From Bacteroidota bacterium (GTDB lineage Bacteria > Bacteroidota > Kryptoniia > Kryptoniales > JAKASW01), in assembly GCA_021796055.1 (NCBI GenBank), contig JAJYOS010000415.1, positions 1-6,253 of the forward strand: DNA of 6,253 nt, in the 5' to 3' direction. How positions within the stretch are numbered: position 1 is the first letter of the stretch; every line of letters starts with the position of its first letter. The position numbers and the translations under genes were made by a program. The notes under the pieces are model-generated. The model had not been told where the DNA came from, did no database searches, and saw only the letters and a program-made list of their open reading frames with translations. Below are positions 321 to 6,253 of the stretch, in pieces.

Positions 321-891
321 TTATCGGGAGAGGGAGATTATTTCTCGGACCAAAACCATTCCGGCATTGATATCCCCGTTTTGGACGTTTGCCTTGAGAT
401 CACCTACAATGCCTGTCGCATTAACCGTACCGTTGACCGTCTAAACATTGGCATCATTCCTGATGTTTGTCACTGTAGCTGCACCGTTCACGATGGCGAT
501 CATTACGCTCAGGGAACTCGGATTTCGTAGTCTACCTCGTAGCTTCTATCCCCCGCGTTGTTCGGTTGCCGCGTGATTATCGAGAAAGTGTTTCCCGTAG
601 AATCAATTTCGATGCTGATGTCGCCTATGTGGTCTTCTGCTTAGGCGGTGGTTACATCTTTAATTTTCTTTACCGCCGTCAGCTGGATGCTGTTCAAAGA
701 GTCAACGCCGACAATTTCGACCGTCCCATTAAGATTGTTGACGGATCCTTGAATGATGAATCGGATTGGGAGTATTGGAAGCTTTCGCTGTATTCTGCTG
801 ACGGACTGCTGTTATCAACGGTAATGCTGCAACCTCCAAGAAACAGGCAAGCTAAGATCAGAACGGTGTGATGTCTAATTCCTTCTTCCAT
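321..891 (-). pseudogene. decayed lipoprotein with DUF4097-like beta-repeat domain
   Basis: The N-terminus is a classic lipoprotein signal starting at ATG 889-891: a hydrophobic stretch (TVLILACLFLGGC) with lipobox LGGC, Cys at residue 21, then a Ser/Asp-rich linker. That frame stops at TGA 694-696. Around 755-770 the sensible reading moves to another frame, which continues as NLNGTVEIVGVDSLNSIQLT, is broken by TAA (641-643), resumes as AEDHIGDISIEID, and ends at TGA (509-511) after EIRVP. A further shift restores VNGAATVTNI, followed by TAG (441-443), then TVNGTVNATGIVGDLKAN and NGDINAG. The spaced VNG / NGDI repeats and the 'IRVP..' lead-in are the hallmarks of DUF4097-type beta-strand repeat proteins, putative surface or envelope proteins of unknown role. 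At least two frameshifts and two nonsense codons show a dead gene. The frame finally closes at TAA 321-323, and the C-terminal third of the family domain is not recognisable. Confidence 0.72.
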
Positions 892-969: not shown

Positions 970-2733
970 TCAAGATAAGCTTCCCTCATAAAGGTCCGTG
1001 TATTGTTTGTTGAAGTTATACAATTCATCATGCTTTCCGCTAACTATGATCTTTCCGTTGTCCATTAATACCATCTTGTCAACACTCGTTATGGACGATA
1101 GTCGGTGACTGATAATTATCGTGGTTTTGTTCTCCATGATTTTTTCTGTGGCATCCCTGATCAGGCTTTCAGACTGGAGATCAATTGATGATGTAGCTTC
1201 ATCCAGTACAAGTATCTTCGGATCGAGCAAAAAAACCCTCGCAATCGAAATCATTTGTTTCTGTCCGCCAGACAGTTGAAAGCCTCTCTCGCCCACTATG
1301 GTGTTATAGCCATCGGGCAGGTTGCGGATAAAATTGTCTGCATATGACGCTCTGGCAGCTTCGCGCATTTCTTCGTCGCTGGCTTCAAGATTCGCATACC
1401 TGATGTTTTCAGCTATAGTTCCACTGAAAACATACGTCTCCTGGGGCACTATCCCTATTAACCTCCTAAGATCAGTGAGAGAATATTCCCGTATATCTTT
1501 ACCATCAAGACAGATCCTCCCGCCTTGTGGCTCGTACAACCTCAATAGCAGGTAGCCCAAAGTCGTCTTGCCAGACCCGGTTCTGCCAACTATCCCGATT
1601 CTGTCGCCGGGCCCAATGTGCAGGCTGAGATGTGCTATTCGAAAGTTGGCATCTTCTCCTCGATAGCAGAAACTAACATCCTGAAAGAGTACGTCCCCTT
1701 TGAACTTATCAGTTGCGCCTACAGTCAGAAGATGGCCTGGGTCGCCCTCAGCTTGTTGATCCAGTATGTCATATATTCTATCAATCGAGACGATGGCTGA
1801 CTGAAGATTAGTCAGATATCCAAAGAGCTGAGTCGAAGGGCTGTACAGCAGACTTAAGTATCCCACGAATCCGACCAATTGACCGGTTGTCATCCTTCCC
1901 GTGATTATGAAATACCCCGCGATTGAAAGAATCGCTATCGGTGCGAGGCTTTGAACAAATCCGTTGGCTGAACCAGCATAAGTGGATAGGAGCCAATTCT
2001 TCTTCGTAAGTTCAATCGCAGCAATTGACTTATCATTGAATCTTGTGATTTCGTAGTCCTCTTTTCGATAGGCCTTGATGCTCATAACCCCGCTGAGCAT
2101 TTCTTGTAAGAATCCGCCTACCTTTGACCATTCCTCTTTCCTTGCATTATTCACTTTCCTTATTTTGTAGTTAAACAATTTCTGGCTGACCAGGTAGAAC
2201 GGAATGATTGCAAGAGCGATTGCGGCCAGCGTTCCATTGATCAGGAAAATCAGAGTTATCCCGAAAATCAAACTCAATAAGCTCTGTACCACGTTCAACG
2301 ATGAAGTCCCCAATATTGAAACTGCGTCTTCGACGTCTTGAGAAACTCGAGAAATGAGGTACCCAGTTTGCTTATCCGAGTAGTAACTAAGTGGAACATG
2401 CAACAAATGATTGAACATTCTGGCGCGGAGGGATAGCACTGAATACAATTGGAAATTGTTAAGGAAGAAATTCTGGATAAAGCTCGAGAAGGTCTTAAGG
2501 AGGATAATTGCTGCCCAAGCAGCGATCAAAACGAAGAACAACTTAGCATCTCTAGCGGCTAGTGCTTTGTCCACAACCAACATGCTTAGCCATGGCATTG
2601 GAAGAGTGAGCAATAGGGAAAAGAGCATAAAGAAACCAGCCAGAAGAAAGTCTCTTTTCCTGTCCTTAAGAAATTTGACGAAGTTTCTGATTTTTCCCAG
2701 CTGTTTACCGTCCAATACATATTCAAAAAACAT
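970..2733 (-). CDS. ABC exporter, fused membrane and ATPase domains (MsbA-like, no peptidase)
   Basis: A 587-residue half-transporter of the type-IV ABC exporter fold that would work as a homodimer in the inner membrane, using ATP to export a substrate. The transmembrane domain spans about residues 30-320, with hydrophobic helices near 30-55, 65-90, 148-180 and 260-290. The ATPase follows with Walker A GRTGSGKT (383-390), Q-loop Gln431, signature LSGGQ (487-491), Walker B ILVLDE (507-512), D-loop SSID, and switch His543. All catalytic residues are present, so it should be active. It lacks the N-terminal C39 Cys-protease of peptide-processing exporters (PCAT) and starts directly with an ordinary cytoplasmic segment. 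Its ATG lies 9 bases after the receptor stop with AGGAG at 2740-2744. Context makes the modified Cys-rich peptide the likely cargo (inference). A lipid or drug exporter of the MsbA group is the alternative, because sequence alone does not give the substrate. Confidence 0.95.
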   Translation of the reverse strand: MFFEYVLDGKQLGKIRNFVKFLKDRKRDFLLAGFFMLFSLLLTLPMPWLSMLVVDKALAARDAKLFFVLIAAWAAIILLKTFSSFIQNFFLNNFQLYSVLSLRARMFNHLLHVPLSYYSDKQTGYLISRVSQDVEDAVSILGTSSLNVVQSLLSLIFGITLIFLINGTLAAIALAIIPFYLVSQKLFNYKIRKVNNARKEEWSKVGGFLQEMLSGVMSIKAYRKEDYEITRFNDKSIAAIELTKKNWLLSTYAGSANGFVQSLAPIAILSIAGYFIITGRMTTGQLVGFVGYLSLLYSPSTQLFGYLTNLQSAIVSIDRIYDILDQQAEGDPGHLLTVGATDKFKGDVLFQDVSFCYRGEDANFRIAHLSLHIGPGDRIGIVGRTGSGKTTLGYLLLRLYEPQGGRICLDGKDIREYSLTDLRRLIGIVPQETYVFSGTIAENIRYANLEASDEEMREAARASYADNFIRNLPDGYNTIVGERGFQLSGGQKQMISIARVFLLDPKILVLDEATSSIDLQSESLIRDATEKIMENKTTIIISHRLSSITSVDKMVLMDNGKIIVSGKHDELYNFNKQYTDLYEGSLS

Positions 2734-2739
2734 TATCCA

Positions 2740-2744
2740 CTCCT
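2740..2744 (-). promoter_or_regulatory. ribosome binding site of the ABC exporter, overlapping the upstream stop
   Basis: AGGAG sits 6 bases before the exporter ATG (2731-2733) and shares bases with the TAG stop of the receptor gene (2743-2745). A ribosome finishing the receptor would be placed directly on this site, so the two membrane proteins are probably translationally coupled. Confidence 0.75.
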
Positions 2745-5241
2745 AGAAGGAATAACTCACACCTAGCGTAGGAATTAGGCCGTAAAGCAAGTTAGCCCTT
2801 CTCATTGGCCTCCCGTTGGCGTCATAGGTGTAAGTGTACGACAGAACGTTGCGCCTGTTGAACAGGTTCATCACATCAAGATAGATTTGTAGCGGCTTAT
2901 GGAACAGAGAATAGCCTTTTGCAATTTTTAAATCAACTCTTTCATACGGGGGGTAATGGCTGGCATTTTTATTCCCCGCAACCCACAAGTACATCATTGC
3001 AGTTGAATCATAATGGCTCACATAGGGAGTGTATGCATAGCCGCTTCCATAGAAGAATCTAACGTCCAAAGACCATTTGTTTCCCAAATCAGAAATCACG
3101 GCAAGGGAAAGAGTGTGTGTTTGATCTGTGTACCGCGGATAATAACCTTCTTTGCTGTCGAGCAATTTTTCTCGCGCAACCAAATAACTGTAGCTCAACA
3201 ACAAATCTGTGTTGCCCAATGTTTCGTTGTACATTAGATCCATACCTGTCGCATATCCCTTGGCGTCATTTTGCCTCGTGCCGTATGCCAATTCACCGTC
3301 CGAAAGTCTGATCGTTGGAATCATGCTCGAATAATCTTTATAGTAGAACTCGCATCTGAGATCCATACCTCCTTCAATTTTCTTTTCAAATCCCAGGATG
3401 TACTGCACTGCTTTTTCGAAGGCCGTGTTAGTATCAGAGGCGACTGAGGACCTTAGTTGTTTGTATGTGGGAGGTTCATAATAGATCCCCCACGCAGCAC
3501 GGATTGTAACTCCGAATGGCCCGGCGTACGACAAACTTGTTCGCGGCGCAAACCTAGTTTCTTTGTCCATGTCGAAGTAATCTAACCTTATTCCTGCATT
3601 AAACATTAGATTGCTTCCTATCTGCGACGTTTGTTGAAAGTACGCTGCTAAACTGTATGTCGAAGCATTTGTTATCACGGTGTCGTTATATGTCGGATCG
3701 GGAGGATAAAGCATGGTTGTTGTATCGGGGAAAAGCGTCACGTTTGTGGCCAGTATCTGGACTCCGTGCATATTCGGCGCGTCGTCATACAGTATTTTCT
3801 TTAGGGTGAATCCCCCGTCGAAATCGAGAAATTGTGACGATTGGAAATTCAAGTCCTGGTCAAGACAGATCGTTTTTATCGAGAGGTCATCGATCAAGTT
3901 TCTATTATTTGATTGGTATGACCAAAATTGGGGGAATCCGCTGTATGTGAGGCTGGTGCTATCCATCAGAATCGCGTGCTCATGTTCGACTTCATTGTAA
4001 TATGAGGCCGTAGTCAGGGAAAGCAATTTGTCCGACAGCATATTGCTGGACCTGATCGACACCAAAGAATTCGTATAATTTGCAAGGAAGCTGGAATTGT
4101 GTACGGTGGTCTGAGATACGAGCGTCTGCTGTCCATAATAGTTCCAGTAGTACCCCAACCGGCTATAGCTATTTGAAGGAGATTGGTTAGCGTTGTCTCT
4201 TGAGAAAATCACATCTACCTTCAGCTTGTTTAAGTCGCTCAGATTGTAGTCCATCTGTCCTTGAACATCGTAGTAGTCCAAACTTATAGCAGAAGAGACG
4301 CTTAACATTCGCATCAGATAGTCAAGGTAACTTTGCCTAACACCTATGATAAACGAACCGTTGCGGCTAACAGGTCCCTCAACCAAAACCGAGAAATCTA
4401 TTAAGCTCAGATCGACCTTACCTTGGTAATTGTTCCTGTCACCGTCTTTGTAATCAATCTTCATCATGGAGCTCAGAGCATCTCCGTATTTGACGCTGAA
4501 CCCTCCCGAACTGAAATCGATACTCTTAACCATGTCAATGTTAAAAATCGACATGCTCCCACCTGCCAGTTCTTTTAAATGATCCGGGTTATAAACCTCG
4601 ACTCCGTTTATCAAAATCAGGTTCTCGTCGGATGTCCCTCCGCGCACATTTATCTTATTGCTTACTTCGTTGTCAACGCTTACCCCGGGCAATAACTGCA
4701 CTGCACGTAGAGGATCTTTCGTCAAACCTGCTAGATCTCTAATCTGTTGGTTTTTGATTTCAGCCGAGCTTATTCTTCTGGGGTTTGCTTGCTCTGCATA
4801 AACGCTTACCTCCTGAAGCAAGAACCCAACAGGGGTCAGTTTAACAACTACGGTAGAATCGTTTTTGTGAACGTCGAGCCTTTCTGTCCGGTAGCCGATA
4901 TACGAGACCAACAGTGTAACTTCTTCATCAGGTAAGGAAATTCTAAACTCACCTCTCTCATTTGTTTGAATCACTTTCTTGAAATTCTGAACTGTAACGG
5001 TTGCATAGACCAAACTCTGATTTGTCGTGGCATCGATCACTCTACCACTGAGAACATGACTTGCTCCTTTACATAACCCTGGATTCAGAAAAAACAAAAT
5101 GGAAACGACGAACATTCCGCCGCTAAAGAGATATGAAAAGAGCAATCCGAGAATTCTGTATTCCTCCGTGGTCTTATAAGATATTGAGGGGTTGATCACG
5201 TGTATTACGCGTTTCACAGTAGAACCCGTAAGATCCTGCAT
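2743..5241 (-). CDS. TonB-dependent outer-membrane receptor with carboxypeptidase-regulatory-like N-domain
   Basis: About 832 residues from the ATG at 5239-5241. A long hydrophobic segment at about 30-53 (ILGLLFSYLFSGG onward) serves as the export signal. Then comes a CarboxypepD_reg-like beta domain at about 64-137 (LSGRVIDATTNQSLVYATV, then NERGEFRISLP and YIGYRTERL). A linker, LQEVSVYAE, lies where these receptors carry a TonB-box-like segment. The plug at about 152-270 contains DPLRAVQLLPGV, NVRGG (RGG at 200-202) and LILINGVEVYNP. The remainder is a beta-barrel of alternating aromatic strands ending in GVSYSF, with the terminal Phe expected of outer-membrane barrels. The family imports metal complexes, cofactors or peptides using TonB energy. 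No STN domain and no neighbouring SusD partner is seen, which argues against glycan uptake. The start is uncertain: an in-frame TTG at 5278-5280 lacks any ribosome site, the chosen ATG has only a close AAAGGTG, and a GGAGG near 5185 has only a non-standard start at good spacing. Its place between precursor and exporter suggests a ligand made by this operon. Confidence 0.93.
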   Translation of the reverse strand: MQDLTGSTVKRVIHVINPSISYKTTEEYRILGLLFSYLFSGGMFVVSILFFLNPGLCKGASHVLSGRVIDATTNQSLVYATVTVQNFKKVIQTNERGEFRISLPDEEVTLLVSYIGYRTERLDVHKNDSTVVVKLTPVGFLLQEVSVYAEQANPRRISSAEIKNQQIRDLAGLTKDPLRAVQLLPGVSVDNEVSNKINVRGGTSDENLILINGVEVYNPDHLKELAGGSMSIFNIDMVKSIDFSSGGFSVKYGDALSSMMKIDYKDGDRNNYQGKVDLSLIDFSVLVEGPVSRNGSFIIGVRQSYLDYLMRMLSVSSAISLDYYDVQGQMDYNLSDLNKLKVDVIFSRDNANQSPSNSYSRLGYYWNYYGQQTLVSQTTVHNSSFLANYTNSLVSIRSSNMLSDKLLSLTTASYYNEVEHEHAILMDSTSLTYSGFPQFWSYQSNNRNLIDDLSIKTICLDQDLNFQSSQFLDFDGGFTLKKILYDDAPNMHGVQILATNVTLFPDTTTMLYPPDPTYNDTVITNASTYSLAAYFQQTSQIGSNLMFNAGIRLDYFDMDKETRFAPRTSLSYAGPFGVTIRAAWGIYYEPPTYKQLRSSVASDTNTAFEKAVQYILGFEKKIEGGMDLRCEFYYKDYSSMIPTIRLSDGELAYGTRQNDAKGYATGMDLMYNETLGNTDLLLSYSYLVAREKLLDSKEGYYPRYTDQTHTLSLAVISDLGNKWSLDVRFFYGSGYAYTPYVSHYDSTAMMYLWVAGNKNASHYPPYERVDLKIAKGYSLFHKPLQIYLDVMNLFNRRNVLSYTYTYDANGRPMRRANLLYGLIPTLGVSYSF

Positions 5242-5303
5242 ACACCTTTGAAGTTCATTTTTGAATAAGCAGATCCGCAAGGTTGGATTCGAATGTCGTT
5301 ACT

Positions 5304-5534
5304 TTATCCGAAATTGATATAGCCGCATTCGCATCCCTGGCATATGTTGCATGTGTCGCATGCTAAGCCAACGTTACCGCAGCTGCAGGAAACGTTAGCA
5401 GCTCCACAGACGTACGTTTGGCATGTGCAACCGCCGCCACCACCAGTATCACTATTACAAGTGTTGCAGCACGGTGTCGTTGTGAATGTCTCAAGATAAC
5501 TTACGTCATCATTTAACAATTCAATGCGTTTCAT
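5304..5534 (-). CDS. 13-cysteine RiPP-type precursor peptide, probable radical SAM substrate
   Basis: A 76-residue peptide that divides cleanly into a leader-like part (1-21: no Cys; contains ELLNDDVSYLE and then TFTTTP) and a cysteine-rich part holding all 13 Cys, at 22, 23, 26, 36, 38, 43, 50, 52, 59, 62, 65, 68 and 70. Five glycines (31-35) separate a small CCxxC group from the rest. The C-terminal part has a regular CxxCxxCxxCxC lattice (59-70), and CxC occurs three times (36/38, 50/52, 68/70). After Lys2-Arg3 there is no Lys, Arg, His or Met at all. It lies downstream of a SPASM radical SAM gene and has an excellent ribosome site, the normal setting of a modified-peptide precursor. Known analogues are thioether-forming Cys-rich substrates (ranthipeptides, SCIFF), but the spacing here matches none I recognise. 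A metallothionein-like metal-binding peptide is the alternative, and both could be true. The maturation product, cleavage site and activity are not knowable from sequence. Confidence 0.85.
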   Translation of the reverse strand: MKRIELLNDDVSYLETFTTTPCCNTCNSDTGGGGGCTCQTYVCGAANVSCSCGNVGLACDTCNICQGCECGYINFG

Positions 5535-5539
5535 ACCTT

Positions 5540-5549
5540 CACCTCCTTT
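5540..5549 (-). promoter_or_regulatory. near-perfect Shine-Dalgarno of the precursor gene
   Basis: AAAGGAGGTG, extending to AAGGAGGTGA, precedes the ATG at 5532-5534, with 7 bases between GGAGG and the ATG. It pairs with about ten bases of the 16S rRNA 3' end. It is much stronger than the sites of the receptor or exporter, which fixes this start codon and predicts that the peptide is translated in large excess over its neighbours. Confidence 0.9.
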
Positions 5550-5555
5550 CGTAAC

Positions 5556-5571
5556 CCAACTTTTTTGTTGG
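5556..5571 (-). promoter_or_regulatory. small inverted repeat just upstream of the precursor ribosome site
   Basis: CCAAC and GTTGG flank six A residues on the coding strand, 7 bases before the Shine-Dalgarno. The 5-bp stem is short. It could stabilise the 5' end of a processed precursor mRNA or be an operator half-site pair. The A/T tract is in the loop and not after the stem, so it is not an intrinsic terminator. It may also be chance. Confidence 0.25.
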
Positions 5572-5589
5572 TCATTTTTGGATAGTGGT

Positions 5590-5778
5590 TCATCCCTGCG
5601 GATCTACAACATGATTAATAAACGGAAACCGAAAACGAAACCTGCACACTTCATGAATCCCTGACGGTGTCACCACCAACACAAGCGTGGGCCGGATATA
5701 AATGGTTACTGCAATTGCACGTGGCCCTCGACACTCAGTGCCACGGACCTTTCGAGATATCTTGTCGGTGTGTTTCAT
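5590..5778 (-). CDS. possible 62-residue small protein of unknown function
   Basis: ATG at 5776-5778, stop TGA at 5590-5592. It fills the gap between the radical SAM enzyme (33 bases upstream) and the precursor (55 bases downstream), as a genuine operon member would. An AGAGGA (5789-5794) lies 10 bases before the ATG. The product begins with a basic stretch (MKHTDKISRKVRG) and then alternates hydrophobic and polar residues (AIAVTIYI, TLVLVV, EVCRFRFRFPF), suggesting a small beta-sheet protein. It has two Cys and no signal peptide. I do not recognise a family. A small RiPP partner such as a recognition or chaperone protein is only a guess from position. Against it: the length is short enough to arise by chance, and another frame here starts at an ATG overlapping the radical SAM stop but is cut by TGA after 26 codons. 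Confidence 0.4.
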   Translation of the reverse strand: MKHTDKISRKVRGTECRGPRAIAVTIYIRPTLVLVVTPSGIHEVCRFRFRFPFINHVVDPQG

Positions 5779-5811
5779 TATTCAATCGTCCTCTCACACA
5801 ATTTTCATTTG

Positions 5812-6253
5812 TCATATTTGGCGCTCAGTTGGTATTTCCTTTCTTCCCCTTTTGTAAAAATGATAAAGGTTTTCGATTTCCGGTTTACTTGACTTAGCGA
5901 TACTTGAATACACCATGATTGCTGTTTCAATAACGTGCTTAATCAATTCACATCTCATGGGATTAGGAGTAGTCACGTCTTTGTAATAATCTTCGCTCAC
6001 TGCGATGCAATCCCCGCCACAAAGAAACCTTGCCCAACACGAATTGCAAGGAACCCGAGAAAACACGTTTGTATTCACGTGTATTTCTTTTTCCCACCGT
6101 CGGTCGAAGGTTCCCGCCATAACATTTCCCATCCTGTAAGTACTATTGACAAAGCGATGACAGGGGAAAATGTCACCGTTCGCTCCCACCGCTACATAGC
6201 CCCTTCCCGCTGCGCAGGAATAGAAATTCTTCCCATTCGTCAAATTTCTTAAG
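5812..6253 (-). CDS. radical SAM/SPASM peptide maturase, C-terminal part (cut by window edge)
   Basis: The frame is open to the right end of the window, so the start and the AdoMet-binding CxxxCxxC core lie outside it. The visible ~146 residues are a complete SPASM domain. Counting from the in-frame TTG at 6241-6243, Cys10 and Cys28 form C-x12-GxxxxC (CAAGRGYVAVGANGDIFPC), and CNSCWARFLCGGDC gives CX2CX5CX3C (Cys66, 69, 75, 79), followed by Cys98. This is the full seven-Cys signature that binds two auxiliary iron-sulfur clusters. The PCHR and CWARxLCGGxC wording is typical of peptide maturases in the SCIFF-maturase/QhpD-like neighbourhood, many of which form thioether links to Cys in a precursor. 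The tail (about 100-143) is charged and unremarkable. It ends in TGA at 5812-5814, upstream of the Cys-rich precursor in the same operon. The exact bond it makes cannot be inferred from this half. The TTG is an internal codon, not the start. Confidence 0.92.
   Translation of the reverse strand, partial: LRNLTNGKNFYSCAAGRGYVAVGANGDIFPCHRFVNSTYRMGNVMAGTFDRRWEKEIHVNTNVFSRVPCNSCWARFLCGGDCIAVSEDYYKDVTTPNPMRCELIKHVIETAIMVYSSIAKSSKPEIENLYHFYKRGRKEIPTERQI

Follow-up and report, generated by a model that had tools for sequence, protein, structure and literature searches.

A Cys-rich peptide operon with a radical SAM/SPASM maturase, terpene-type and SPASM fusion proteins, a TonB-dependent receptor and an ABC exporter in a Bacteroidota bacterium

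Several described systems each share features with the operon reported here. ItfA-F of Bacteroides thetaiotaomicron include a precursor, a radical S-adenosylmethionine (SAM) enzyme, an ABC transporter and a TonB transporter (PMC11002830), and for methanobactin, TonB-dependent retrieval of a ribosomally synthesized and post-translationally modified peptide (RiPP) has been proposed (PMC3621798). According to a 2026 review, ChrPC and NctPC prenylate Trp and then cyclise the prenyl group (PMC13290415), and in drimenol synthases DxDTT is the cyclisation motif (PMC9128629). Here we analyse a 6,253-nt stretch of DNA from a Bacteroidota bacterium (contig JAJYOS010000415.1; hereafter the window), which maps to G000:C4:105869-112121 in a genome of 4.97 Mb and carries four genes, all on the minus strand: the end of a maturase gene and the genes for a 13-Cys peptide, a TonB-dependent receptor and an ABC exporter.

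We read the window as the downstream half of a RiPP operon and propose, tentatively and with somewhat less than even confidence, a scheme of crosslinking, terpenylation, cleavage, export and receptor uptake. The radical SAM/SPASM enzyme would bind the leader and crosslink core cysteines, most likely through ranthipeptide-type thioethers. A domain with the isoprenyl-diphosphate-synthase fold, joined to a SPASM domain from which the radical SAM site has been lost, would move a prenyl chain onto the peptide, and a separate class II cyclase with a DxDTT motif would fold the chain, before or after transfer, into a terpenoid. A SPASM/signal-peptidase-like protein would then cut off the leader, the ABC protein would export the product, and the receptor would bind and re-import it, either ligand-loaded or as a signal. 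The product would be a thioether-crosslinked RiPP, probably terpenylated and perhaps taken back; it may carry its terpene group on the peptide itself. Every chemical step is inferred, and so are the residue that would accept the prenyl group and the direction in which the receptor would transport.

The precursor and the four-gene module

Gene order, domains, folds and motifs are established here, as is the presence of the four-gene module in a second genome. The precursor (5304..5534, minus strand) is a 76-aa peptide with 13 Cys, no Trp and a leader-like segment, MKRIELLNDDVSYLE. Its start lies in the context AAAGGAGGTGAAGGT-ATG, with a strong ribosome-binding site (AAAGGAGGTG; 5540..5549, minus strand) read from the sequence. 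The 13-Cys precursor peptide of the first-pass annotation holds by direct count. Two homologues retain the leader and the Cys residues, namely protein P0006 (68% identity), available as protein only, its surrounding DNA not being among the readable loci, and an open reading frame (ORF) at 7177-7380 of locus L046 (about 52-53%). The precursor matched no model in Pfam or NCBIfam (none in the latter up to E 5). A search of 100 genomes returned one match, in its own genome, and in a collection of 5.8 billion proteins the peptide gave two proteins, including its own copy.

Upstream of the precursor lie the C-terminal 146 of the 480 maturase residues (5812..6253, minus strand; Pfam SPASM 1.1e-6), the whole gene being at G000:C4:111680-113122. 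Downstream, the receptor gene (2743..5280, minus strand) encodes 845 aa from a TTG start, the true start being unsure, and the exporter gene (970..2733, minus strand) encodes a membrane part and an ATPase. Coordinates and Pfam domains agree with the first-pass annotation on the order maturase, precursor, receptor and exporter on one strand. Its short gaps hold for precursor-receptor (23 nt) and receptor-exporter (9 nt) but not for maturase-precursor (277 nt). A small ORF placed in this last gap as an operon member (5590-5778, minus strand) was rejected, since it has no family match and could not be accommodated in L046, whose maturase and precursor genes are separated by just 17-23 nt.

The order maturase, peptide, receptor and exporter repeats in L046, identical in sequence to DMMN01000236.1 from the metagenome-assembled genome (MAG) of Bacteroidetes bacterium UBA10030, at identities of 47, about 52-53, 39 and 44%, respectively. 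Recurrence of the order at 39-53% identity argues that the four-gene linkage is real. The peptide-receptor gap there is 297 nt, versus 23 nt in the window, and the receptor-exporter gap is 12 nt; the contig breaks off within the maturase gene and thus shows nothing of the operon beyond the four-gene module. Receptor and exporter accompany the homologous precursor at both readable loci (the window and L046).

The whole maturase contains a Pfam Radical_SAM domain (3.7e-15), CxxxCxxC at residue 107 and the SPASM motif. Its earlier identification as a SPASM radical SAM enzyme is correct, although the radical SAM part (CNMRCVYC) lies outside the window. The best NCBIfam model was TIGR03974 (311.4 bits, cut-off 425), and the other matches (not_ScfB, nif11-peptide, QhpD and PapB models) also fell under their cut-offs. 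The best solved relative was 5wgg (2.9e-75), which we take to be CteB. By sequence comparison the maturase appears to group with ranthipeptide-type enzymes, and the adjoining Cys-rich precursor agrees with this type; it fits no named equivalog, because every NCBIfam match is below cut-off. Membership in SCIFF was rejected on the TIGR03974 score and on the lack of a match between the precursor and any NCBIfam peptide model. The maturase is rare: at E 1e-40 the class search matched 4 of 391 genomes, its own among them. Scanning genome contigs yielded 32 maturase-like loci in named genomes, most of which carry Bacillota titles; an ABC-like match was present at six, and a receptor or homologous precursor solely in L074, which is the same contig as L046. 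The relatives in genomes G399 and G614 have unrelated neighbours.

Terpene-type and SPASM fusion genes upstream

In the flanking sequence the operon extends upstream of the window, and the order of transcription is regulator, 321-aa, 749-aa and 610-aa proteins, maturase, peptide, receptor and exporter. The added genes, all on the minus strand, encode a LuxR-type regulator with a GerE domain (C4:118252-118887), a class II terpene-cyclase-like protein of 321 aa (C4:117144-118109), an isoprenyl-diphosphate-synthase-fold/SPASM fusion of 749 aa (C4:114949-117147, shorter start) and a SPASM/signal-peptidase-like fusion of 610 aa (C4:113110-114942). Regulator and 321-aa gene are 142 nt apart; thereafter, down to the maturase, come a 4-nt overlap (assuming the start used in P0007), a 6-nt gap and a 13-nt overlap. 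This spacing bears on a plainer explanation, in which the four genes form an Itf-like system and the upstream genes are mere neighbours. We consider it quite unlikely: Itf has the same four kinds of component (PMC11002830), L046 shows the four-gene module alone, and a 277-nt gap stands ahead of the precursor, but the genes upstream of the maturase gene overlap it or adjoin it, and a homologous precursor shares its listed contig with homologues of both fusions. That contig, of 9,275 bases, is listed by P0003, P0009 and the peptide P0006 alike, and another, of 4,529,109 bases, by both P0002 and P0008. Judged by the equal lengths, P0003, P0009 and P0006 presumably sit on one contig; a second source would then probably link the peptide with both SPASM fusions. 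In the 5.8-billion-protein collection the 610-aa and 749-aa proteins gave four proteins each, own copies included, in searches that scored only the approximately 8,000 candidates sharing most words.

The 321-aa protein matches drimenol synthase 9mhs over the C-terminal half of the latter (2.2e-6) and, weakly, squalene-hopene cyclases. Its DLDTT motif aligns with DLDTT of 9mhs and with DSDD and DTDD of two fusion proteins described below, as expected of a class II terpene cyclase beta-domain. A search of 109 genomes for this cyclase returned one match, in its own genome.

For the N-domain of the 749-aa protein, structure search revealed an isoprenoid-synthase fold. It carries two Asp-rich motifs, whose Asp residues do not vary among all five prenyl-domain sequences. 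GGKxxR, and RR after the first Asp motif, are the motifs that bind isopentenyl diphosphate (IPP). RR is absent from all five sequences and GGKxxR from the four rows covering its site, and both are present in L133, a canonical synthase.

Both fusion families keep the SPASM motif CxxCx5CxxxC (eight of eight sequences) and have the radical SAM motif CxxxCxxC in none of the eight; judged from these alignments, they look like relatives of the maturase that shed the radical SAM site and gained another catalytic domain. After its SPASM domain the 610-aa protein has a signal-peptidase-like domain (TIGR02228, 28.1 bits, below the cut-off of 51.85), in which S432, H470 and D489, presumably the catalytic boxes of an S26B-type signal peptidase, are invariant in four of four sequences. 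Since the exporter has no C39 peptidase domain, this fusion is a candidate for leader removal.

Relatives of the prenyl domain were sought by an alignment search of 79 genomes of family f10, of which nine matched, one (G378) being itself in the alignment. L126 (7429-13752) and L127 (958-7196) encode prenyl-domain/cyclase fusions (SQHop_cyclase_C 4.1e-13 and 3.6e-17; motifs DSDD and DTDD) that adjoin genes for a radical SAM/SPASM enzyme and an M50-peptidase-like protein; each locus also has a candidate precursor ORF containing Cys and Trp, with a leader of LEERLE type. Against the cyclase parts of these fusions, the cyclase-like protein of our operon scores 4e-7 (L127) and 6e-5 (L126). Both fusions fit what the review says of ChrPC and NctPC (PMC13290415), and they apparently represent a ChrPC-like radical SAM RiPP family in this class.

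These relatives also bear on the idea that the operon makes two products, the cyclase and prenyl-synthase domain forming a separate small terpenoid and the peptide being crosslinked only. A prenyl synthase fold and a class II cyclase could in principle yield a free terpenoid; however, the SPASM domain to which the prenyl domain is joined is a relative of the maturase's, the IPP-binding motifs required for chain building are missing from the prenyl domain, and the L126 and L127 fusions likewise stand beside radical SAM genes. We therefore regard two products as very unlikely.

Other relatives were recorded in the same searches. L128 (7382-11860) encodes a 651-aa prenyl-domain protein, and its neighbours are an M50-like protein and a small Trp-containing ORF whose leader is related; there is no radical SAM gene on the contig. 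The protein was matched in the genome search (1.2e-11) and by BLASTP (5e-5) but was missed by the local hidden Markov model search and has no Pfam cyclase match, and was therefore not counted as a prenyl/cyclase fusion. Standalone prenyl-synthase-fold proteins without IPP-binding motifs occur at L129 9596-10528, L130 9831-10781, L131 7575-8531 and L132 9889-10821, with no radical SAM genes nearby and, judged by eye, downstream of serine/threonine kinase-like genes. In L047 (genome G378; 6971-15708) a radical SAM gene, a 57-aa ORF, a PQQ/FG-GAP-like protein, a standalone prenyl-synthase-fold protein, ABC genes and an Rce1-like CAAX protease stand in a row. A prenyl-domain tree gave no resolved placement of the window, L047, canonical and fusion rows and was set aside.

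Receptor, exporter and the weight of the evidence

The receptor has Pfam barrel (1.7e-17), CarbopepD_reg_2 (2.3e-15) and Plug (1.2e-10) domains, and the exporter has ABC_membrane (4.1e-41) and ABC_tran (1.4e-30). Receptor beside exporter, found at both peptide loci, is the specific arrangement here; the substrate of the receptor would be the peptide product, and transport would run inward. The first-pass annotation had proposed a circuit of making, export and recapture, whose maturase/peptide/receptor/exporter module does recur in a second genome; recapture is a putative step, and the receptor belongs to a general family.

The adjacency of receptor and exporter at both loci also suits a metallophore loop, in which the cell would secrete the thioether-crosslinked Cys-rich peptide to chelate metal and bring the complex back through the receptor, the terpene-type domains being only peptide-docking scaffolds. 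Thirteen Cys within 76 aa favour such a loop, for which the retrieval proposed for methanobactin offers a precedent (PMC3621798). We nevertheless hold it unlikely, because the invariant Asp motifs and the intact DxDTT fit catalysis better than scaffolding, and domain scans recognised no metal-handling gene among the operon proteins.

Several observations weigh against the proposed scheme of a crosslinked and terpenylated peptide. All characterised prenyltransferases of this fold use Trp according to the 2026 review (PMC13290415), and none of the three precursors contains Trp, so Cys or Tyr would need to be the acceptor. Sequence-only matches of the 749-aa N-domain are under threshold (PDB profile E 0.57, Pfam polyprenyl_synt 0.076, NCBIfam 0.05; its L047 homologue reaches 0.0036 with polyprenyl_synt), hence the fold assignment draws on the structure search, and the full-length model of this protein is poor (predicted local distance difference test score, pLDDT, 42), too poor for use. 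The 610-aa SPASM/peptidase protein was not found in the 69%-complete L046 assembly, and terpene-type genes together with receptor and exporter were seen only in the window's genome. Finally, the receptor family is general. In a class search that scored the two best candidates per genome, and whose list is thus not exhaustive, the best other match was a 47% paralogue in the receptor's own genome, and the L046 receptor was one among many at 34-42%. Neither a maturase-like nor an exporter-like ORF was present at any of 20 receptor-relative loci (BLASTP 1e-4; 20 of 23 fetched, several contig-cut). On these grounds an operon-specific receptor family was rejected. The 47% paralogue itself (L097 8891-11431; G000:C18:17495-19918) has no maturase or exporter nearby.

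Further features of the locus were noted. The last 18 bases of the window (6236-6253) repeat positions 2665-2682 of the exporter gene in inverted orientation, and its last 14 bases (6240-6253) deviate from the genome assembly; where the record ends, an assembly artefact is the probable cause. One more base, 1120, also deviates. A 42-base stretch at 299-340 recurs at 98% identity on two further contigs of this genome and perhaps belongs to a small repeat family. A 65-aa ORF with a lipoprotein-like start (694-891, minus strand), perhaps a remnant, matched a single NCBIfam model, one for a lipoprotein, and did so below threshold (E 0.097). Rfam gave no match on L004 or the window. Between 4400 and 5100 of L004, a scan restricted to sigma-70 promoters found none, and the single terminator-like site is on the opposite strand. 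Upstream of the operon, L003 carries a group II intron-type reverse transcriptase/maturase (9312-10790). Plasmid or viral cargo was rejected, as an A1 scan of viral contigs and a precursor tblastn in plasmids were empty, phage records lying outside the search; an A1 scan of genome contigs also gave no match.

Comparison with known systems

If the proposed scheme is true, one short operon unites thioether crosslinking and terpenoid attachment on a peptide; a prenyl-synthase-fold peptide prenyltransferase would have a non-Trp acceptor, contrary to the 2026 review; and intact SPASM domains without radical SAM chemistry would apparently provide a transferase and a protease with docking modules. 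The receptor-exporter pair offers a handle for asking what such peptides do outside the cell. A stronger version remains doubtful: a Trp-free Cys-rich core would be both thioether-crosslinked and terpenylated on Cys or Tyr, the radical-SAM-less SPASM domain would be a portable docking module for the prenyl enzyme and leader protease, and the hybrid, once exported through the ABC pump, would be recaptured by a TonB receptor of its own.

The first-pass annotation did not recognise the gene combination as a named class. Searches of open-licence literature, subscription papers being outside their coverage, found no paper on SPASM RiPPs with a terpene cyclase, on SCIFF/SPASM with TonB, or on a Cys-rich radical SAM RiPP with a TonB-dependent receptor. 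The annotation is only half right, as precursor, radical SAM enzyme, ABC and TonB together have a precedent in ItfA-F.

Grasp-with-spasm systems use a SPASM domain without a radical SAM domain; here, by contrast, SPASM is fused to prenyl-synthase-fold and to signal-peptidase-like domains. The ranthipeptides (CteB, PapB) and SCIFF peptides share with our operon the radical SAM/SPASM group and a Cys-rich precursor adjoining the maturase, whereas our maturase is below all NCBIfam equivalog cut-offs and is accompanied by extra SPASM fusions, a receptor and terpene-type genes. The prenyl domain has the fold and Asp motifs of the trans-isoprenyl diphosphate synthase (IDS)-like peptide prenyltransferases (ComQ, PalQ, ChrPC P domain) and has lost the IPP-binding motifs, a marker of peptide prenyltransferases by our own definition, but a Trp acceptor is lacking; as the precursors are Trp-free, we say that it would work like, not that it is, such an enzyme.

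ChrPC and NctPC likewise place a prenyl-transfer domain (trans-IDS-like in ChrPC) and a class II cyclase in a peptide pathway (PMC13290415); in our operon, compared by description, prenyl domain and cyclase are separate genes, the former is SPASM-fused and the precursor has no Trp. The drimenol synthases have a class II beta-domain with DxDTT (PMC9128629), but they are HAD-TCbeta proteins, whereas our protein, of 321 aa, has no HAD match and aligns only with the C-terminal half of 9mhs. Methanobactin operons (PMC3621798) also pair a RiPP with an exporter and a TonB transporter proposed for retrieval, but with a MATE exporter and other modifying enzymes, where ours has radical SAM and ABC proteins and no MATE-type Pfam match. 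The Itf system likewise contains a precursor, a radical SAM enzyme, an ABC transporter and a TonB-dependent transporter; it additionally has a YcaO-type protein and a transporter that bears a C39 peptidase, and neither Pfam domain occurs in the operon proteins scanned.

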